NCBI RefSeq assembly: GCF_014836875.1
Contig: NZ_JACSQC010000005.1
Coordinates: forward strand, 186,001 to 250,000
Source of the DNA: Arthrobacter pullicola
Lineage (GTDB): Bacteria > Actinomycetota > Actinomycetes > Actinomycetales > Micrococcaceae
Length of the DNA stretch: 64,000 nucleotides
Direction: 5' to 3'
A program made the translations under genes and the position numbers. The notes under the pieces were generated by a model. That model did not search any database, was not told the origin of the DNA, and was given only the letters and a program-made list of their open reading frames with translations. Shown in pieces: positions 36,972 to 46,289 of this stretch (the stretch's first letter is position 1; every line of letters begins with the position of its first letter).

Positions 36972-39083
36972 ATGATCAGCCCGGAAGCGGAAACTCCGCC
37001 CGAATCAGCCGCCAAAACCCGTGTCAACAAGACGGTATTTACCGGGTCCGCCATCGGCATTATCGCCATAGCGGTGTGGGCCATGGTCTCCACCGAATCG
37101 GCGGAGTCGGTCATCGGCACGATGGTCGGCTGGGTGTCCACGAACATGGGGTGGTACTACTTCCTGGTCGTCACCTTGGTCGTCATCTTCGTCCTCGTTA
37201 TCGCCCTCTCCGGCGTCGGCAGGACAAAGCTCGGCCCAGACCATTCCAAGCCGCAGTTCGGGCTGTTTACCTGGGGCGCCATGCTGTTCGCCGCCGGGAT
37301 CGGCATCGACCTGATGTTCTTCTCAGTCTCCGAACCCGTCACCCAGTTCCTCGCCCCGCCCCAGGGCGACGGTTCCACCGCTGAGGCGGCACGCCAGGCG
37401 CTGGTATGGACCCTGTTCCACTACGGCATCACGGGCTGGGCGCTTTACGCCCTCATGGGACTGGCACTGGGATATTTCGCCTACCGGCACAACCTCCCGC
37501 TGAGCATCCGCTCCGCGCTGTATCCGATCTTCGGTAAGAAGATCGACGGTCCACTGGGCCATGGCGTGGACATAGCGGCCCTGCTCGGCACCATCTTCGG
37601 CATCGCTACTTCACTGGGCATCGGCGTCGTGCAGCTGAACTACGGACTGAACTTCATGTTCGATGTTCCGGAGAACGTCAGCGTCCAAATCGCGCTGATC
37701 GCGCTGTCCGTAGCCATGGCCACCGTCTCGGTGGTCTCCGGCGTGGAGAAGGGTATCCGCCGCCTCTCCGAGCTCAACGTCATCCTGGCAGTCGGCCTGA
37801 TGCTGTTCGTCCTCATTGCCGGCAAAACCAGCTTCCTGTTCGACGGGATCGTGCAGAACACCGGCGATGTCCTCAGCCGCTTCCCCGGCATGACGCTGGA
37901 CACGATGGCCTACGACAGGCCGGACGAGTGGCTCTCCAGCTGGACCCTGTTCTTCTGGGCCTGGTGGATCGCCTGGGCTCCGTTCGTGGGCCTGTTCCTG
38001 GCGCGTATTTCCCGCGGCCGGACCATCCGCCAGTTTGTCCTGGGCACCATGGTTGTCCCCTTCGCCTTCATCCTGCTGTGGATCTCCATCTTCGGGAACA
38101 GCGCCCTGGACCTGGTGATGGGCGGAAACGCCGCGTTCGGCGAGGTCGCCATGAACCAGCCCGAGCGGGCGTTCTACGGCTTGCTGGAGCAGTACCCCTG
38201 GGCGCCTGCCACTGCTGCCATCGCCACCTTCACCGGATTGCTGTTTTACGTCACCTCCGCTGACTCCGGTGCGCTGGTCATGGCGAACTTCACCTCCCAC
38301 CTCAAGGACGCCGATTCGGACGCCCCGAAGTGGATGCGGGTCTTCTGGGCCGTGGTCACCGGACTGCTCACCCTGGCCATGCTGATGGTGGGCGGTGTGA
38401 GCACGCTGCAGAACGCCACGATCATCATGGGCCTGCCGCTGTCCATCCTGCTGCTGTTCATCATGCTCGGTGTCTATAAGGCGCTGCGGGTGGAGAACTC
38501 GCTGGCCGCCAGTTTCCGGGCCTCCCTGCCCGGCATGATCGCCGGCCGCGGCGGCGGAGATGCCCGGGGTGGACGTTCCTGGCGCCAGCGGCTCACCCGT
38601 GCCATGACCTATCCCGGACCCAAGCAGGCAGCCCGCTTCGTGGAAAGCGTCGCCTACCCCGCCCTGCAGGAGGTCCACGACGAACTCGAATCCAAGGGGG
38701 CGGAGGTTTCCCTCTCCCTCACCGGCTGCGGTTCAAACGACATCCGCTCCGCAGACCTCACCGTCGGACTAGCGGACGAGCGTCCCTTCAAATACCAGGT
38801 CTACCCCGTCCAGTACGAGACGCCGTCCTATGCGCTGCGCAGCGCTTCGACGGACACCAAATACTTCCGCATGGAGGTCTTTTCGCTCGAAGGCAGCCAC
38901 GGTTACGACGTGATGGGCTACACGAAGGAGCAGCTGATTACCGACGTCCTGGATCACTACGAACGACACCTCGAATTCCTGCACCTCAACCGCGAGGTGC
39001 CCGGCAACACCGCAATCACCGAAGACCCGGTTGGCAAAGACAACTGGGATGCCGACTTTGTCGGCGAGGAGGAAAAAGTATGA
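36972..39083 (+). CDS. betT: BCCT-family choline/betaine transporter with osmosensing-type tail
   Basis: 703 aa. Twelve membrane helices occupy about residues 22-510, with the BCCT signature region WTLFFWAWWIAWAPFVGLFL in helix 8 and FGIATSLGIGVVQL upstream. A cytoplasmic C-terminal tail of nearly 190 residues follows, as in BetT-type choline importers, where the tail tunes osmotic activation. The gene begins after AAAAGGA and overlaps betB by 4 bases. With betB and codA downstream, choline is the probable substrate. Confidence 0.9.
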   Translation: MISPEAETPPESAAKTRVNKTVFTGSAIGIIAIAVWAMVSTESAESVIGTMVGWVSTNMGWYYFLVVTLVVIFVLVIALSGVGRTKLGPDHSKPQFGLFTWGAMLFAAGIGIDLMFFSVSEPVTQFLAPPQGDGSTAEAARQALVWTLFHYGITGWALYALMGLALGYFAYRHNLPLSIRSALYPIFGKKIDGPLGHGVDIAALLGTIFGIATSLGIGVVQLNYGLNFMFDVPENVSVQIALIALSVAMATVSVVSGVEKGIRRLSELNVILAVGLMLFVLIAGKTSFLFDGIVQNTGDVLSRFPGMTLDTMAYDRPDEWLSSWTLFFWAWWIAWAPFVGLFLARISRGRTIRQFVLGTMVVPFAFILLWISIFGNSALDLVMGGNAAFGEVAMNQPERAFYGLLEQYPWAPATAAIATFTGLLFYVTSADSGALVMANFTSHLKDADSDAPKWMRVFWAVVTGLLTLAMLMVGGVSTLQNATIIMGLPLSILLLFIMLGVYKALRVENSLAASFRASLPGMIAGRGGGDARGGRSWRQRLTRAMTYPGPKQAARFVESVAYPALQEVHDELESKGAEVSLSLTGCGSNDIRSADLTVGLADERPFKYQVYPVQYETPSYALRSASTDTKYFRMEVFSLEGSHGYDVMGYTKEQLITDVLDHYERHLEFLHLNREVPGNTAITEDPVGKDNWDADFVGEEEKV

Positions 39084-40588
39084 CCAACACGGCGAACACC
39101 GCAAACACGGCCACGCTTTTCATCGATGGTGAGTGGGTCCCCGCTTCCGACGGCGGCACCCGTGAGATCCACAACCCGGCCGACGGCGAACACGTAGTAA
39201 CGGTTTCCGAGGCCACCCGCGCTGACACGGAGAAGGCCATCACGGCTGCCCGCGCCGCTTTTGACCGCGGTGAGTGGGCGGCTGTTCCCGCCCCGGAGCG
39301 GGGCGACTTCCTGCTGCGCGTCGCGGCGGAACTGCGCGCCCGCAAGGATGAGTTCGCCCGCGCCGAAACCCTCGACACCGGCAAGCGCCTGGTGGAGAGC
39401 CAGATCGACATGGACGACATCGCTGCCTGCTTCTCCTACTTTGGCAAAATCGCCGGCCAGAACGCCGGCCGGATTGTCGACGCCGGGGATCCCGGCGTTG
39501 TCTCCCGGGTCGAGTACGAGCCGGTCGGCGTCTGCGGGCTGATCGCCCCGTGGAACTATCCTCTGCTGCAGGCCGCGTGGAAGATCGCCCCGGCCCTGGC
39601 GGCCGGATGCACCTTCGTACTGAAGCCCTCGGAGCTCACGCCGTCCACCTCCATCCTCATGATGAAGGTCCTGGCGGATCTTGGCCTGCCCCGCGGCACG
39701 GCCAACCTGGTGCTCGGAGCCGGGGCTGTTGCCGGCGCACCGCTCTCCGAGTCCCCCGACGTCGACCTGGTCTCCTTTACCGGCGGTGTGGCCACCGGGA
39801 AGATCATCGCTGCCTCCGCCGCCGGAACGATCAAGAAGGTGGCACTTGAGCTCGGCGGCAAGAACCCCAACATCATCTTCGCGGATGCCGACTTCGACGC
39901 CGCAGTGGACAACGCGCTCAACGCCGCGTTCGTCCATTCCGGGCAGGTCTGCTCCGCCGGCGCCCGGCTGATCGTGGAAGAGCCCATCGCCGAACGCTTC
40001 GTGAATGAACTGGTCCGCCGGGCAGAGCAGATCCGGATGGGCGGGCCGTTCGACGACTCCGCAGAAACCGGTCCCCTGATCTCCGCGGCGCACCGGGACA
40101 AGGTAACCGCCTACGTCAACAAGGCCGTCGAGGAGGGCGCCCGCATCCGCTGCGGCGGAACCTGGGGCACCGGCGAGCTGGAAAAGGGCTTCTACTACGC
40201 CCCGACCGTGCTGGACAACGTCCGGCGCGGCAGTTCTGCCCTGGTGGACGAGGCCTTCGGCCCGGTCGTCACCGTCGAAACGTTCAACGGTGAGGACGAA
40301 GCCGTGGAGCTGGGCAATGACACCGACTACGGCCTGGCCGGAGCGGTCTGGTCGCAGGATGCGGGGAAGACCCAGCGTGTGGCCCGGCGGCTGCGGCACG
40401 GCACCATCTGGATCAACGACTTCCACCCCTACCTGCCGCAGGCCGAATGGGGCGGCTTCGGTGCCTCCGGCGTCGGCCGCGAGCTCGGCCCCACCGGGTT
40501 GGGCGAATACCAGGAAGCCAAGCACATCTACCAGAACATCAACCCCCAGGTAACCGGTTGGTTCCCCGACCATGGAAAGGCCAACTAG
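39080..40588 (+). CDS. betB: Betaine-aldehyde dehydrogenase
   Basis: 502 aa NAD(P)-dependent aldehyde dehydrogenase. The catalytic Glu lies in ALELGGKNPNIIFADADFD and the nucleophilic Cys in HSGQVCSAGARLIVEEPI; APWNYPLLQAAWKIAPALAA binds the cofactor. The C-terminal ASGVGRELGPTGLGEYQEAKH segment is typical of BetB. It oxidises betaine aldehyde to glycine betaine. It sits between the choline importer and choline oxidase in one operon. Confidence 0.93.
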   Translation: MTNTANTANTATLFIDGEWVPASDGGTREIHNPADGEHVVTVSEATRADTEKAITAARAAFDRGEWAAVPAPERGDFLLRVAAELRARKDEFARAETLDTGKRLVESQIDMDDIAACFSYFGKIAGQNAGRIVDAGDPGVVSRVEYEPVGVCGLIAPWNYPLLQAAWKIAPALAAGCTFVLKPSELTPSTSILMMKVLADLGLPRGTANLVLGAGAVAGAPLSESPDVDLVSFTGGVATGKIIAASAAGTIKKVALELGGKNPNIIFADADFDAAVDNALNAAFVHSGQVCSAGARLIVEEPIAERFVNELVRRAEQIRMGGPFDDSAETGPLISAAHRDKVTAYVNKAVEEGARIRCGGTWGTGELEKGFYYAPTVLDNVRRGSSALVDEAFGPVVTVETFNGEDEAVELGNDTDYGLAGAVWSQDAGKTQRVARRLRHGTIWINDFHPYLPQAEWGGFGASGVGRELGPTGLGEYQEAKHIYQNINPQVTGWFPDHGKAN

Positions 40589-40592
40589 CTCC

Positions 40593-42206
40593 ATGACTGA
40601 TCTGCAGAAAACGGACTTCGACTACATCGTGATCGGCGGAGGCTCCGCCGGTGCCGCCGTCGCCGCGCGGCTCAGCGAGGATCCCGCCGTCGAAGTGGCG
40701 CTGGTGGAAGCCGGCGCCGATGACCGGGGAGTGGACGAAGTTCTCCAGCTGGACCGCTGGATGGAACTGCTGGAATCCGGCTACGACTGGGACTACCCGA
40801 TCGAGCCGCAGGAAAACGGCAACTCGTTTATGCGCCACTCCCGCGCCAAGGTCATGGGCGGCTGTTCCAGCCACAACTCCTGCATCGCCTTCTGGGCGCC
40901 CCGGGAGGACATCGATGAATGGGAGACCAGGTTCGGTGCGGAGGGCTGGAACTCGGAGATGGCCTTCCGGCTGTACAAGCAGCTCGAATCCAACGAGGAT
41001 GCCGGCCCCGATGCACCCCATCACGGTGCGGACGGCCCGGTGAAACTGATGAACGTGCCGCCGAGCGACCCCTGCGGCGTCGCCCTGCTGGACGCCTGTG
41101 AACAGGCCGGCATTCCGCGGACGAAGTTCAACACCGGGCAGACCGTCATCAACGGAGCCAATTTCTTCCAGATCAACCGGCGCCCGGACGGCACCCGCTC
41201 CTCGTCCTCCGTGTCCTACATCCATCCGATCCTGGAACGGAAGAACTTCACGCTGCTGACCGGGCTGCGCGCCCGTGAACTCAAATTCAATGATGCCAAC
41301 CACTGCACCGGCGTCGACGTCGTGGACGGGCAGTTCGCCCGCACGCACACACTGAACGCCCGCACCGAGGTCATCCTCTCCGCCGGGGCGATTGATTCGC
41401 CCAAACTGCTGATGCTCTCCGGCATCGGCCCGAAGGAGCACCTGGCCGAACACGGCATCGAGGTGCGCGCAGACTCCCCCGGCGTGGGCTCGAACCTGCA
41501 GGACCACCCGGAGGGTGTTATCCAGTGGGAGGCGAAGCAGCCCATGACCGAAACCTCCACCCAGTGGTGGGAAATCGGCATCTTCACCCCCACTGAAGAC
41601 GGCCTGGACCGCCCAGACCTGATGTTCCATTACGGCTCGGTGCCGTTTGACATGCACACGCTGAGGCAGGGTTTCCCCACCACGGAGAACGGTTTCTGCC
41701 TCACCCCGAACGTCACCCACGCGCGGTCCCGCGGCACGGTGCGGCTGCGCAGCCGGGACTTCCGGGACAAGCCGATGGTGGACCCGCGCTACTTCACCGA
41801 CCCGCATGACATGCGCGTGATGGTCTACGGCATCAAGAAGGCCCGGGAGATCATCTCCCAGCCGGCAATGGCCGAATGGGCGGGCCGGGAACTGTACCCG
41901 GGACCGGACGTGCAGACGGATGAGGAGATCACCGAGTACATCACCAAAACGCACAACACTGTCTACCACCCGGCCGGTTCGGTGCGGATGGGCGCGTACG
42001 ACGACGGGATGTCGCCTTTGGATCCGCAGCTGCGGGTCAAGGGCGTCACCGGCCTTCGGGTGGCTGATGCCTCCGTCATGCCGGAGCTCACCACGGTCAA
42101 CCCGAACATCACCACCATGATGATCGGCGAGCGCTGTGCCGAACTGGTACGGGAAGCCCGTGCTGCCTCCGGTGCGGACACCGCTGCTGCAGGTGCCGGC
42201 GTGTAG
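40593..42206 (+). CDS. codA: Choline oxidase (GMC flavoenzyme)
   Basis: 537 aa. The FAD-binding start is DFDYIVIGGGSAGAAVAARL. His94 in GGCSSHNSC corresponds to the histidine that covalently holds FAD in Arthrobacter choline oxidase, with the adjacent Ser conserved. The Glu in HPEGVIQWEAK, His in HYGSVPFDMHT, His in NTVYHPAGSVRMG and Asn in TVNPNITTMM match the other active-site residues I remember. It converts choline to glycine betaine with O2, making H2O2. One loop (FTDPHDMRVM) is two residues shorter than the A. globiformis protein. ATG 40593 is chosen over 40572. Confidence 0.92.
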   Translation: MTDLQKTDFDYIVIGGGSAGAAVAARLSEDPAVEVALVEAGADDRGVDEVLQLDRWMELLESGYDWDYPIEPQENGNSFMRHSRAKVMGGCSSHNSCIAFWAPREDIDEWETRFGAEGWNSEMAFRLYKQLESNEDAGPDAPHHGADGPVKLMNVPPSDPCGVALLDACEQAGIPRTKFNTGQTVINGANFFQINRRPDGTRSSSSVSYIHPILERKNFTLLTGLRARELKFNDANHCTGVDVVDGQFARTHTLNARTEVILSAGAIDSPKLLMLSGIGPKEHLAEHGIEVRADSPGVGSNLQDHPEGVIQWEAKQPMTETSTQWWEIGIFTPTEDGLDRPDLMFHYGSVPFDMHTLRQGFPTTENGFCLTPNVTHARSRGTVRLRSRDFRDKPMVDPRYFTDPHDMRVMVYGIKKAREIISQPAMAEWAGRELYPGPDVQTDEEITEYITKTHNTVYHPAGSVRMGAYDDGMSPLDPQLRVKGVTGLRVADASVMPELTTVNPNITTMMIGERCAELVREARAASGADTAAAGAGV

Positions 42207-42279: not shown

Positions 42280-42285
42280 TACTCT
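42280..42285 (+). promoter_or_regulatory. Candidate -10 giving a leaderless transcript of the first PBP gene
   Basis: TACTCT is followed by 6 bases (GTGCGG) and ATG 42292. No ribosome site is present. Confidence 0.45.
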
Positions 42286-42291
42286 GTGCGG

Positions 42292-44289
42292 ATGGGGAAT
42301 CACCGCTTTTTGGCATCTGTACTGTCCGTGTCCATTTTGGGGCTGTCGCTGGCCGCCTGCTCGGCCGAGGACCGGCCCGCCCCCGAAGAGGCAGCGGCCA
42401 AGCTCGCTGAGGGCCTTTCCGGACTGGATGTCTCCGGCAGTTCATTCCAGGACTCCACGGCGGAGGAAATCAACGCCCTGCTGGCGGACTCGGTCTCCGG
42501 TATGGCTCCGCTGAAACCGGCCGTCAGTGTTACCTCCGTGGAGGAGGTCTCCGATGACGAAGCCACGGCAACCCTCAGCTACGTCTGGGACGTCAGCGCC
42601 GGGGATGAGGATTACAGCTACGAAACCACGGTGGAACTGCAGCGGGACGAAGAGGACCTCTGGCAGGTCAGGTTCGATCCCTCCTCCGTGCATCCCAGCC
42701 TCGCACCGGGCGATTACCTCCTGCGCGAAGTTACCCCGGTCCCCCGCGGCGAGATCCACGGCGCGGACGGACAGGTACTGGTCACGGAGCGTCCGGTGTG
42801 GCGCGTCGGAATCGATAAGACACGGCTGGAGTCCGCCGAGCTGGAGTCTTCCGCCGCCGCGCTCGCCGGGTTCCTGGAACTTGACCCCGCTGCCTATACC
42901 GCCCAGGTGCTGGCATCCGGGCCGGAGGCCTTCGTGGAAGCCATCACCCTCCGCCAGGACAGTGTCAGCCCGCCGGCCGTCTTCCAGGCCGAAGTCGCTG
43001 CCATCCCCGGCGCCGCCGCGATCTCTGCCAGCCTGCCGCTGGCCCCCACCCGCACGTTCGCCCGGGCACTGCTGGGGTCTGTGGGCGAGGCGACGGCCGA
43101 ACTGATCGAGAAGTCCGGCGGCACGCTCTCCCCCGGCGACAAGACCGGCCTCTCCGGGCTGCAGCAGCAGTACAACTCCCAGCTCCTGGGCGTTGACGGC
43201 GTCGCCGTCCGCACCGTCAGTGCCGCAAACGTGTCATCTGCTCCGCTCTTCGAATCCGACGGTGTTGCTTCTGACCCGCTGCAGACCACACTTGACGTAC
43301 GCCTGCAGACACTTGCCGAGTCCGTCCTTGCTGATGAGCCGTCGGCCTCGGCGCTGGTGGCCATCCAGCCGTCCACGGGCAATCTCCTCGCCGTAGCCAA
43401 CGGGCCCGGCAGCGAAGGAGCCCAGACGGCCCTGCTCGGACAATACGCCCCGGGATCCACGTTCAAAATCGCCACTTCCCTGGCCATGCTGCGCTCCGGA
43501 GCCACCCCGGCAACCACCGTTTCCTGCCCCGAAGAACTCACCGTGGACGGCAGGCGGTTCAATAACGCCAGCACCTACCCGGCGCAGTTCCTCGGGGAAA
43601 TCCCGCTGCGCCAGGCGTTCGCGCAGTCCTGCAACACGGCCTTCATCAACGCCCGCGGAACGGTGGCCCAGCCGGACCTCGCCGCCGCAGCGCAGGCGCT
43701 GGGGCTGGGGGTCGACGCCGCGATCGGCACTCCGGCGTACTTCGGCTCCGTGCCCGCAGCCGCGGATGGAACCCTTCACGCCGCCTCCATGATCGGGCAG
43801 GGCGAGATCCTCGTGTCGCCGCTGGCGCTGGCCGTCGCGGGCGCCTCCGTTGCCAAGGGCGAACGGGTCTCCCCCGTGCTGGTCGAAGCGGCTGACCCAG
43901 CTGCGGGCGGTGAAACGGCAGGTTCTTCCGGCTCGGCGTCGGCCTCCGGCTCGGCGTCAGTTTCCGGCTCGGCGTCGGCCTCCGGCTCCGCGCCGGGATC
44001 CGCCGCAGCACCCTCCCTGACCACCGCTGAAGCGGCAACCCTGCGTGAGATGATGCGCGCCGTGGTGACCGACGGCGGTGTGCAGCTGCTCCAGGGCGTT
44101 CCCGGCGAACCCATTCTGGCCAAGACCGGCACCGCTGAATTCGGCAGCGATACTCCGCCGCGCACCCATGCCTGGGTCGTGGCGATCCAGGGCGATCTCG
44201 CCGTCGCAGTGTTCATTGAAGAGGGTGAACTGGGTTCAACCTCCGGCGGCCCCGTGATGAAGGCATTCCTCGACGGCCTGGCCGGCTGA
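42292..44289 (+). CDS. Penicillin-binding lipoprotein (class B transpeptidase), active-site motifs intact
   Basis: 665 aa. A lipoprotein signal ends in the lipobox LAAC (lipidated Cys about residue 23). An NTF2-like MecA_N domain (about 30-145), a dimerisation domain and a transpeptidase follow, with S389-TFK392 (SxxK), S446-CN448 (SxN) and K611-TG (KTG). This is the architecture of mycobacterial Rv2864c. It cross-links peptidoglycan outside the membrane. A Ser/Ala/Gly-rich repeat (GSASASGSASVSGSASAS, about 547-570) interrupts the domain before KTG. A degenerate paralogue follows 86 bases downstream. Confidence 0.9.
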   Translation: MGNHRFLASVLSVSILGLSLAACSAEDRPAPEEAAAKLAEGLSGLDVSGSSFQDSTAEEINALLADSVSGMAPLKPAVSVTSVEEVSDDEATATLSYVWDVSAGDEDYSYETTVELQRDEEDLWQVRFDPSSVHPSLAPGDYLLREVTPVPRGEIHGADGQVLVTERPVWRVGIDKTRLESAELESSAAALAGFLELDPAAYTAQVLASGPEAFVEAITLRQDSVSPPAVFQAEVAAIPGAAAISASLPLAPTRTFARALLGSVGEATAELIEKSGGTLSPGDKTGLSGLQQQYNSQLLGVDGVAVRTVSAANVSSAPLFESDGVASDPLQTTLDVRLQTLAESVLADEPSASALVAIQPSTGNLLAVANGPGSEGAQTALLGQYAPGSTFKIATSLAMLRSGATPATTVSCPEELTVDGRRFNNASTYPAQFLGEIPLRQAFAQSCNTAFINARGTVAQPDLAAAAQALGLGVDAAIGTPAYFGSVPAAADGTLHAASMIGQGEILVSPLALAVAGASVAKGERVSPVLVEAADPAAGGETAGSSGSASASGSASVSGSASASGSAPGSAAAPSLTTAEAATLREMMRAVVTDGGVQLLQGVPGEPILAKTGTAEFGSDTPPRTHAWVVAIQGDLAVAVFIEEGELGSTSGGPVMKAFLDGLAG

Positions 44290-44363
44290 CCCTCCCCAAA
44301 AAAATCCGGCTGCGGGCGCTGCGCTTTCCGCTGGGGCCGTGTCCTTTTGCGGATGCCCGCAGA

Positions 44364-44369
44364 TAGCCT
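44364..44369 (+). promoter_or_regulatory. Candidate -10 giving a leaderless transcript of the second PBP gene
   Basis: TAGCCT is followed by 6 bases (GTCCGG) and ATG 44376. It suggests that the paralogue has its own promoter despite the short 86-base gap. Confidence 0.45.
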
Positions 44370-44375
44370 GTCCGG

Positions 44376-46289
44376 ATGGTGAAACACCGCCTGATAGCAG
44401 CCGCTGTGTCCGTATCCGTCCTGGCGTTGTCCCTGAGCGCGTGTTCGCCGGAGGAAGGGCCCGGTCCCGAAGCCGCTGCGGAGACGCTGGCTGCCGGTCT
44501 CTCCGCCCTTGATGTCACGGGCAGCGCTTTCGTGGACTCCTCGGTCGAGGCAGTCAACGGCATGCTGGAACATCTGGTCTCCGGAATGGCACCGCTGAAG
44601 CCGTCGGTGACCGTGACCAAAATCGAGGATGTCTCGGATTCACAAGCTGCCGCCACTCTCCACTATGTCTGGGACGTCAACGCGGCGGCGGAAGACTACA
44701 GCTACGACGCCACGGTGCTCCTGGACCGGGGTGAAGACAACACCTGGCAGGCCCGCTTTACCTCCACCACCGTGCATCCGGAGCTGGACCCTACGGAGCG
44801 GCTGCTGCGCACCACGGCCCCCGTGCGCCGGGGGGACATTCTCGGCGCCGGGGGTGCCGTGCTGATGGCAGACCGGGCAGTCTGGCACGTGGGCATCGAT
44901 AAGGTGTGGCTCACCGAAAAGGAGTACGCTTCCTCCGCGTTTTACCTGTCCCAGTATTTGAATATCGACACCGATGCCTTCACTGCCAAGGTCCGGGCGG
45001 CGGGCCCGAAGGACTTCGTTGAGGCTGTCACCGTGCGGCAGGACAGCGTTCCCGCGAACTTCGAATCGGAAATCGCCACCGTGCCCGGCGCCGCAGCACT
45101 TCCCGAGGTCCGGTCCCTGGCGCAGTCAGGCAGTTTCGCCGGGGCGCTGCTGGGTTCGGTCGGCGAGGCCACCCCTGAATTGATTGAACAGTCCGGCGGC
45201 TCGCTGGCCGCCGGGGACCAGACGGGGCTGTCCGGGCTGCAGCGCGAATACGATACGCAGCTTCGGGGTGCCGACGCCGTCACCGTCCAGATAGCCACGG
45301 CGGATAACGTCCGCTCGGCACCGCTGTTCGAGACAGCCGGTGAGGCCGGTAAGCCCCTGCAGACAACCCTCAACGCCGGCATCCAGACGCAGGCGGAGTC
45401 CGCGCTGAAGGACGAGCCGTCTGCTGCGGCCCTGGTAGCCATCCAGCCCTCCACCGGGAATATCCTTGCGGCGGCCAACGGGCCCGGAAGCGGCGGAGCC
45501 CAGACGGCGCTGCTGGGCCAGTTTGCTCCGGGGTCCGCGTTCCAGCTCGCCACCGCGCTGGCGATGCTGCGCACCGGAGCTGCCCCGGACACCGAGGTCT
45601 CCTGCCCCGCGGACGTCACCGTGGACGGCCGGACATTCGCCAACCCCGCTGGCTATCCCAGCGGGTACCTGGGCGGGATCACCCTCGCGGAGGCCTTCGC
45701 CCAGTCCTGCGACACCGCGTTCGTCAACGCCCGGGACTCGGTGTCCCAATCTGATCTCTCCGCTGCCGGTGCCGGCCTGGGTCTGGGGGTGGATTCCGCT
45801 ATCGGCACCCCCGCCTACTTCGGGTCTGTGCCGGAGACAGCGGACGGAGCCCTCCACGCAGCCTCGATGATCGGACAGGGTGAGGTCCTGGTCTCACCGC
45901 TTGCCCTGGCCGTTGCCGGTGCCTCCGTGGCCAAGGGCGAACGGGTATCTCCCGCGCTGGTCTCCTCCGCAGACAGCGGGACGGACAGCACACAGAGCCC
46001 GCAGGCACCGGCTCCGGTCACCGCGGAGGAGGCCGGCACCCTGCGTGAGGTGATGCGCGGTGTCGTCACCGACGGCAGCGCTCAGCTGCTCGAGGACGTG
46101 CCCGGCAACCCGGTCCTGGCCAAGAACGGTGCCGCCGGGTTTGGCGGCGAGACCCCGCCGCGCACCCATGCCTGGGTGGTCGCAGTCCACGGCGATCTCG
46201 CCGTCGCGCTGTTCATTGAACGGGGTGAAACCGCCCCGGCTCCCGCCGAAACGCTCATGAAGACGTTCCTGGATGCGCTGACGGGCTAA
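44376..46289 (+). CDS. Penicillin-binding lipoprotein paralogue with all three catalytic motifs altered (pseudoenzyme)
   Basis: 637 aa, collinear with the upstream PBP from lipobox (LSAC) to end, including the NTF2-like MecA_N domain. The active site has changed at every signature: S387-AFQ390 (Lys of SxxK is Gln), S444-CD446 (Asn of SxN is Asp) and K583-NG585 (Thr of KTG is Asn). The acylation Ser remains, but the general base is gone, so transpeptidation and beta-lactam acylation are unlikely. The frame is uninterrupted and the surroundings are well conserved (for example LHAASMIGQGEVLVSPLALA), so it is probably a maintained structural or regulatory partner. It lacks the Ser/Gly repeat of its twin. 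Confidence 0.88.
   Translation: MVKHRLIAAAVSVSVLALSLSACSPEEGPGPEAAAETLAAGLSALDVTGSAFVDSSVEAVNGMLEHLVSGMAPLKPSVTVTKIEDVSDSQAAATLHYVWDVNAAAEDYSYDATVLLDRGEDNTWQARFTSTTVHPELDPTERLLRTTAPVRRGDILGAGGAVLMADRAVWHVGIDKVWLTEKEYASSAFYLSQYLNIDTDAFTAKVRAAGPKDFVEAVTVRQDSVPANFESEIATVPGAAALPEVRSLAQSGSFAGALLGSVGEATPELIEQSGGSLAAGDQTGLSGLQREYDTQLRGADAVTVQIATADNVRSAPLFETAGEAGKPLQTTLNAGIQTQAESALKDEPSAAALVAIQPSTGNILAAANGPGSGGAQTALLGQFAPGSAFQLATALAMLRTGAAPDTEVSCPADVTVDGRTFANPAGYPSGYLGGITLAEAFAQSCDTAFVNARDSVSQSDLSAAGAGLGLGVDSAIGTPAYFGSVPETADGALHAASMIGQGEVLVSPLALAVAGASVAKGERVSPALVSSADSGTDSTQSPQAPAPVTAEEAGTLREVMRGVVTDGSAQLLEDVPGNPVLAKNGAAGFGGETPPRTHAWVVAVHGDLAVALFIERGETAPAPAETLMKTFLDALTG

Follow-up and report, generated by a model that had tools for sequence, protein, structure and literature searches.

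MecA_N-containing penicillin-binding proteins (PBPs), such as PBP3, PBP5, PBP4, and PBP2a, are active acyl-serine enzymes. Roles of class B PBPs that do not require catalysis are known from work with dead mutants made in the laboratory; one study reports that catalytically inactive Bacillus subtilis PBP2B supports division when the PBP2a-like PBP3 is present (PMC5656894). Class B PBPs are also thought to activate SEDS glycosyltransferases allosterically (PMC12713402). Among actinobacterial PBPs, the mycobacterial PBP-lipo (Rv2864c/MAB_3167c) is described as a hypothetical lipoprotein with its lipidation cysteine at residue 23 (PMC9170245). Here, we describe two tandem class B PBP genes, copy A and copy B, from Arthrobacter pullicola. 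They are located in a 64,000-nucleotide stretch of contig NZ_JACSQC010000005.1 (positions 186,001 to 250,000), hereafter called the window, and all coordinates below are positions within it unless a locus is named. Copy A is probably the counterpart of mycobacterial PBP-lipo. Copy B, as judged from its sequence, is very probably a maintained non-catalytic protein.

Catalytic motifs and domains of copies A and B

Copy A (42292–44289, forward strand) encodes an intact class B PBP lipoprotein of 665 residues, with MecA_N (residues 55–140), PBP_dimer (148–313), and Transpeptidase (355–660) domains. Copy B (44376–46289, also on the forward strand, as are the motifs, domains, and −10 boxes of the two genes given below) is its non-catalytic tandem paralogue of 637 residues, with MecA_N (56–140), PBP_dimer (149–306), and degenerate Transpeptidase (352–605) domains. 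All three families exceed their Pfam cutoffs in both proteins, which are among six matches to the Transpeptidase family in the 3.6 Mb genome. Both frames are open from the lipobox (LAAC in A, LSAC in B) to the C-terminus, and the two proteins align end to end, as the preliminary description of this locus had held, with ~60% identity. In copy A, the SxxK, SxN, and KTG motifs are STFK (residues 389–392; 43456–43467), SCN (446–448; 43627–43635), and KTG (611–613; 44122–44130). The former motifs of copy B read SAFQ (387–390; 45534–45545), SCD (444–446; 45705–45713), and KNG (583–585; 46122–46130). The positions and residues first reported for both copies are exact. It had also been claimed that B lost all three catalytic motifs. 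In the window copy, one essential residue is indeed gone from each motif, but the serines of SxxK and SxN are still present, as are the lysine and glycine of KTG.

Family frames were extracted and aligned from 29 genomes of the genus, including that of A. pullicola. Each genome has one A-type copy, in which S-x-x-K, S-C-N, and K-[TS]-G are always kept (KSG in two). Copy B is present in 13 of the 29; two carriers, G000 and G005, are nearly identical, which gives twelve distinct cases. It directly follows A in eight genomes (G000, G005, G012, G001, G014, G004, G006, and G011) and is unlinked to it in the other five (G002, G003, G022, G023, and G024), each of which has its own A. The SxxK lysine is lost in all 13 B copies, where Q, E, L, T, or a gap takes its place. 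The serine of this motif is kept in eight copies, including that of the window, and is T, A, or R in the other five. The SxN asparagine is likewise lost in every B copy. Ten of the 13 have no SxN block, and the 71 residues corresponding to A residues 400–470 are reduced to 18–28 in 10 of the 13. The KTG motif is altered throughout, with its lysine gone in 10 copies, including that of G022, where the reading is out of frame at this point. Judged by the SxxK, SxN, and K[TS]G motifs, none of the 13 copies would be a functional penicillin-binding transpeptidase. These data support the conclusion that B would be unable to carry out acyl-serine transpeptidation by known chemistry. A Transpeptidase annotation, then, need not mean a beta-lactam target. 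The suggestion that B might be a beta-lactam sensor is very unlikely to hold for a sensor that works by acylation, and any acylation-based sensor or sink was rejected on the uniform loss of the lysine. The replacement residues Q390, D446, and N584, whose conservation among orthologues had been raised as a question, are not conserved: the lysine position varies as above and the SxN block is mostly missing. A new function of these three residues themselves was rejected on the same ground.

At an E-value threshold of 0.001, a scan of 11 of the 13 B copies detected PBP_dimer in 11, Transpeptidase in 9, and MecA_N in 6; for A, a scan of 14 of the 29 copies detected Transpeptidase in 14, PBP_dimer in 14, and MecA_N in 13. 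The MecA_N-type architecture is full in the window copy of B and partly eroded in other members. Conservation of the transpeptidase domain is higher than that of the remaining protein in A but lower in B, and the NTF2-like (MecA_N) domain (44541–44795) and the pedestal (PBP_dimer) domain (44820–45293) are constrained among B copies. The lipobox L-x-[AG]-C is kept in all 13 as LSAC, LAAC, or LAGC, which predicts lipoproteins. The best solved-structure matches of both A and B include PBP3 (7bn9), PBP5 (6g0k), PBP4 (6bsq), and PBP2a/2' (3zfz), presumably from S. aureus, E. faecium, and E. faecalis. The NTF2-like and pedestal half of B matches the N-terminal part of solved PBP3-, PBP5-, and PBP2a-type chains. 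A structure prediction for B, made from six sequences, has a mean predicted local distance difference test score (pLDDT) of 46. Separately, a Ser/Ala/Gly-rich low-complexity insert (43920–44010) is found in the transpeptidase domain of A, ahead of the KTG region. The insert varies in length, and the further A and B copies compared have a shorter one.

Origin, probable transfer, and expression signals of copy B

When all 42 proteins were placed in a maximum-likelihood tree with the root on the G013 A copy, the B copies formed one clade (100/99). This clade joins the tandem A copies from all eight genomes that have them (100/99), separate from the other A copies. A tree built without the transpeptidase columns (38 rows) again gives one B clade (100/99) grouped with the tandem A copies (100/98), with the order inside the group unresolved. 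The simplest reading of these trees is that A was duplicated in tandem, giving rise to B, in the ancestor of the eight tandem Arthrobacter genomes, all of which retain both copies. A B copy 99.8% identical to that of the window is found in the record of Arthrobacter gallicola Sa2CUA1, and one with 79% identity in A. luteolus NBRC 107841. When the B protein was compared with 395 genomes of the family, 121 gave a match at an E value of 1e-60 or better, with three candidates scored per genome among the matches listed. Among these listed matches, only the 13 B carriers have double matches, and other genera have single matches with at most 42% identity. Identity to the query is 54–100% for B copies and 52–53% for the A copies of tandem genomes; because these ranges adjoin, the tree rather than identity was used to distinguish A from B. 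At this threshold, B looks confined to the genus in the 395-genome sample. A plasmid search with the B protein returned two distant matches (34–36% identity). On a Dermacoccus abyssi plasmid (L114, 1303–2580), a stretch resembling the N-terminal half of B has two short hypothetical proteins as its annotation, lies close to a transposase, and is possibly a broken gene.

The five unlinked B copies are located between a tRNA-Gly (TCC) gene and fpg. They nest with the B copies of G004, G006, and G011 (100/99), and the A copies of the same five genomes fall on the other side of the A tree. The gap from fpg to the tRNA-Gly (TCC) gene is just 64–151 bases in 22 of the 29 genomes, and the interval is an insertion hotspot in the genus (L047–L051; L112, 6182–7669; L113, 5290–7723). 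It contains B alone in four genomes and B together with FUR-family and DUF222/HNH genes in G022. Two genomes have other genes there without B, DUF222/HNH in G007 and FUR-family plus HNH in G018, and no similarity to B was detected in this stretch of either. The synonymous divergence of B (0.09–0.19) is below that of A, tig, clpP1, clpP2, pepN, fpg, and rpiB in 10 of 10 genome pairs (the G022 pieces being partial). Identity drops just past the 3' end of B in four of five aligned loci; between G002 and G024, it falls from 0.89–0.97 inside B to 0.69–0.81 over the next 750 bases. The 5' border of the relocated copies is less clear: the dip in identity is limited to the stretch from the tRNA genes to B, and the tig side is well conserved too. 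From these comparisons, the relocated B copies seem to have been acquired by horizontal transfer, with B moved or exchanged alone or nearly so. The search for a donor found none close enough to name. Because five genomes carry B at a distance from an A of their own, the pairing of B with its adjacent twin, as first envisaged, is not obligatory, and a generic host partner should suffice for B.

The −10-like element initially noted ahead of B is real. A TANNNT box stands at a fixed place, six nucleotides before the ATG, in all 13 B genes (TAGCCT in the window, 44364–44369) and in all 29 A genes (TACTCT, 42280–42285). Positions −12 to −7 of the ATG therefore carry it in 42 of 42 genes, as compared to 1 of 2268 other positions in the same upstream stretches, although the 42 genes are related and hence are not independent counts. 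Because six bases between the box and the ATG leave no space for a ribosome-binding site, A and B are probably each transcribed from their own promoter as leaderless mRNA. The six Pfam-named neighbors in the window (BCCT transporter, Aldedh, GMC oxidoreductase, YccF, Pyridox_ox_2, and HutD) give no hint of the function of B. The BCCT transporter, aldehyde dehydrogenase, and GMC oxidoreductase genes form a choline-oxidation-like set ahead of A (36972–42206). In G001 (L040), the 5.3 kb preceding A show none of these genes, and A and B are still there.

Maintenance and possible roles of copy B

The B frame is open to its usual C-terminus in 12 of the 13 genomes, across pairs with a synonymous divergence (dS) above 1, and the protein alignment of 11 open frames contains 35 distinct gap intervals without the frame ever being lost. 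The pairs for which the ratio of nonsynonymous to synonymous divergence (dN/dS) was measured give values under 1, some close pairs and regional tests being weak. With SxxK or K[TS]G found in none of the 13 copies, these data bear out the view of B in the preliminary description as a maintained pseudoenzyme. A slowly decaying duplicate with no function left would account for the segments that are being lost from the transpeptidase domain and would fit the whole-gene dN/dS of 0.28–0.39 among relocated copies, some regional tests being weak. It would also fit the B copy of G022, the one of 13 that ends in another frame. However, the fpg and pepN frames of the G022 assembly are broken as well, so this frame change is likely a sequence error and was set aside as a sign of decay. 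The promoter box and the lipobox are kept in all 13 copies, and B is retained after transfer, which, like the open frames and dN/dS values, argues against decay. Simple decay was rejected on the open frames, dN/dS, and single origin, and we consider slow decay to a functionless state very improbable.

Other functions of a maintained B were weighed. An allosteric site for peptidoglycan lies in the N-terminal lobe of PBP2a, and the more conserved part of B matches this lobe of PBP2a-type solved structures. Copy B could then be a peptidoglycan or muropeptide sensor whose NTF2-like/pedestal lobe binds wall fragments and signals via a membrane partner, without acylation. A FUR-family regulator gene adjoins B in G022, but one is also present at the same site in G018, which is without B. 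No signaling gene is found among the six Pfam-named window neighbors, and no cytoplasmic part is apparent in B besides the signal peptide, which makes a sensor unlikely. The patchy, horizontal spread of B would be explained if it acted at the cell surface as a decoy for phages, bacteriocins, or rival bacteria, or as a factor that excludes them. Its transfer into a hotspot that is occupied by HNH endonuclease genes in two genomes without B, with the low synonymous divergence stopping at its 3' end, is in keeping with such a role. Nevertheless, all eight tandem genomes keep B in place, and PADLOC models matched none of five proteins (A, two B, and two HNH). A decoy is, in our judgment, distinctly improbable. 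Still less can be said for a different catalysis, such as that of an esterase or carboxypeptidase, through the remaining serine. This residue is present in eight of the 13 copies, including that of the window, but it is replaced in the other five, and the loss of the lysine in every copy and of the SxN block in 10 leaves such an activity exceedingly improbable.

The role that we propose, to which we give about an even chance, is that B is an old, maintained pseudo-transpeptidase acting as a non-catalytic partner or competitor at the sites of A through its NTF2-like and pedestal module. After duplication of A in tandem, B would have lost acyl-enzyme chemistry and been kept for what this module does. 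The gene would have a leaderless promoter of its own, and the protein would be exported and lipidated. Where peptidoglycan is synthesized, it may occupy the protein or glycan-strand binding sites of the N-terminal module of A, and thereby tune A or SEDS/PBP complexes, with its transpeptidase domain serving mainly as fold support. Such a protein should manage with a generic host partner and not solely with its original twin. One finding weighs against an easy analogy: the S364A variant of M. abscessus PBP-lipo is reported not to complement, indicating that the serine is needed (PMC9170245). The bolder idea, that B is a mobile natural pseudo-PBP that regulates peptidoglycan synthesis in trans via the NTF2-like/pedestal module alone, is tentative and somewhat doubtful. 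If true, B would be a first pseudoenzyme family among class B PBPs, and the non-penicillin-binding half would be a selectable function by itself.

Comparison with known class B PBPs

No description of a natural class B PBP pseudoenzyme family turned up in searches of open-access papers. The B copies combine a single origin, catalytic loss in all members sampled, and purifying selection (weak for some close pairs), as a pseudoenzyme family does. The lineage can be viewed as a natural experiment: it shed its active site, selection has preserved its lipobox and its NTF2-like and pedestal domains, and the gene seems to travel singly from one species to another. Because close relatives with and without B exist, the role of the pedestal/NTF2 module alone is directly testable in Arthrobacter.

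The NTF2-like, PBP_dimer, and transpeptidase modules of A and B are common to the MecA_N-type PBP3, PBP5, PBP4, and PBP2a/2'; in contrast to these proteins, B has lost SxxK, SxN, and KTG. Copy B is thus a pseudoenzyme paralogue of PBP2a-like class B PBPs that is unusual in its mobility. It resembles a natural dead version of mycobacterial PBP-lipo, a protein whose serine is reported to be required. The B. subtilis PBP2B/PBP3 pair is reported to exemplify a structural role of a class B PBP without catalysis, as proposed here for B. However, the inactive PBP2B is a laboratory mutant and the PBP2a-like PBP3 is active, whereas in Arthrobacter the PBP2a-like protein is itself dead and belongs to a natural, long-lived, mobile lineage.

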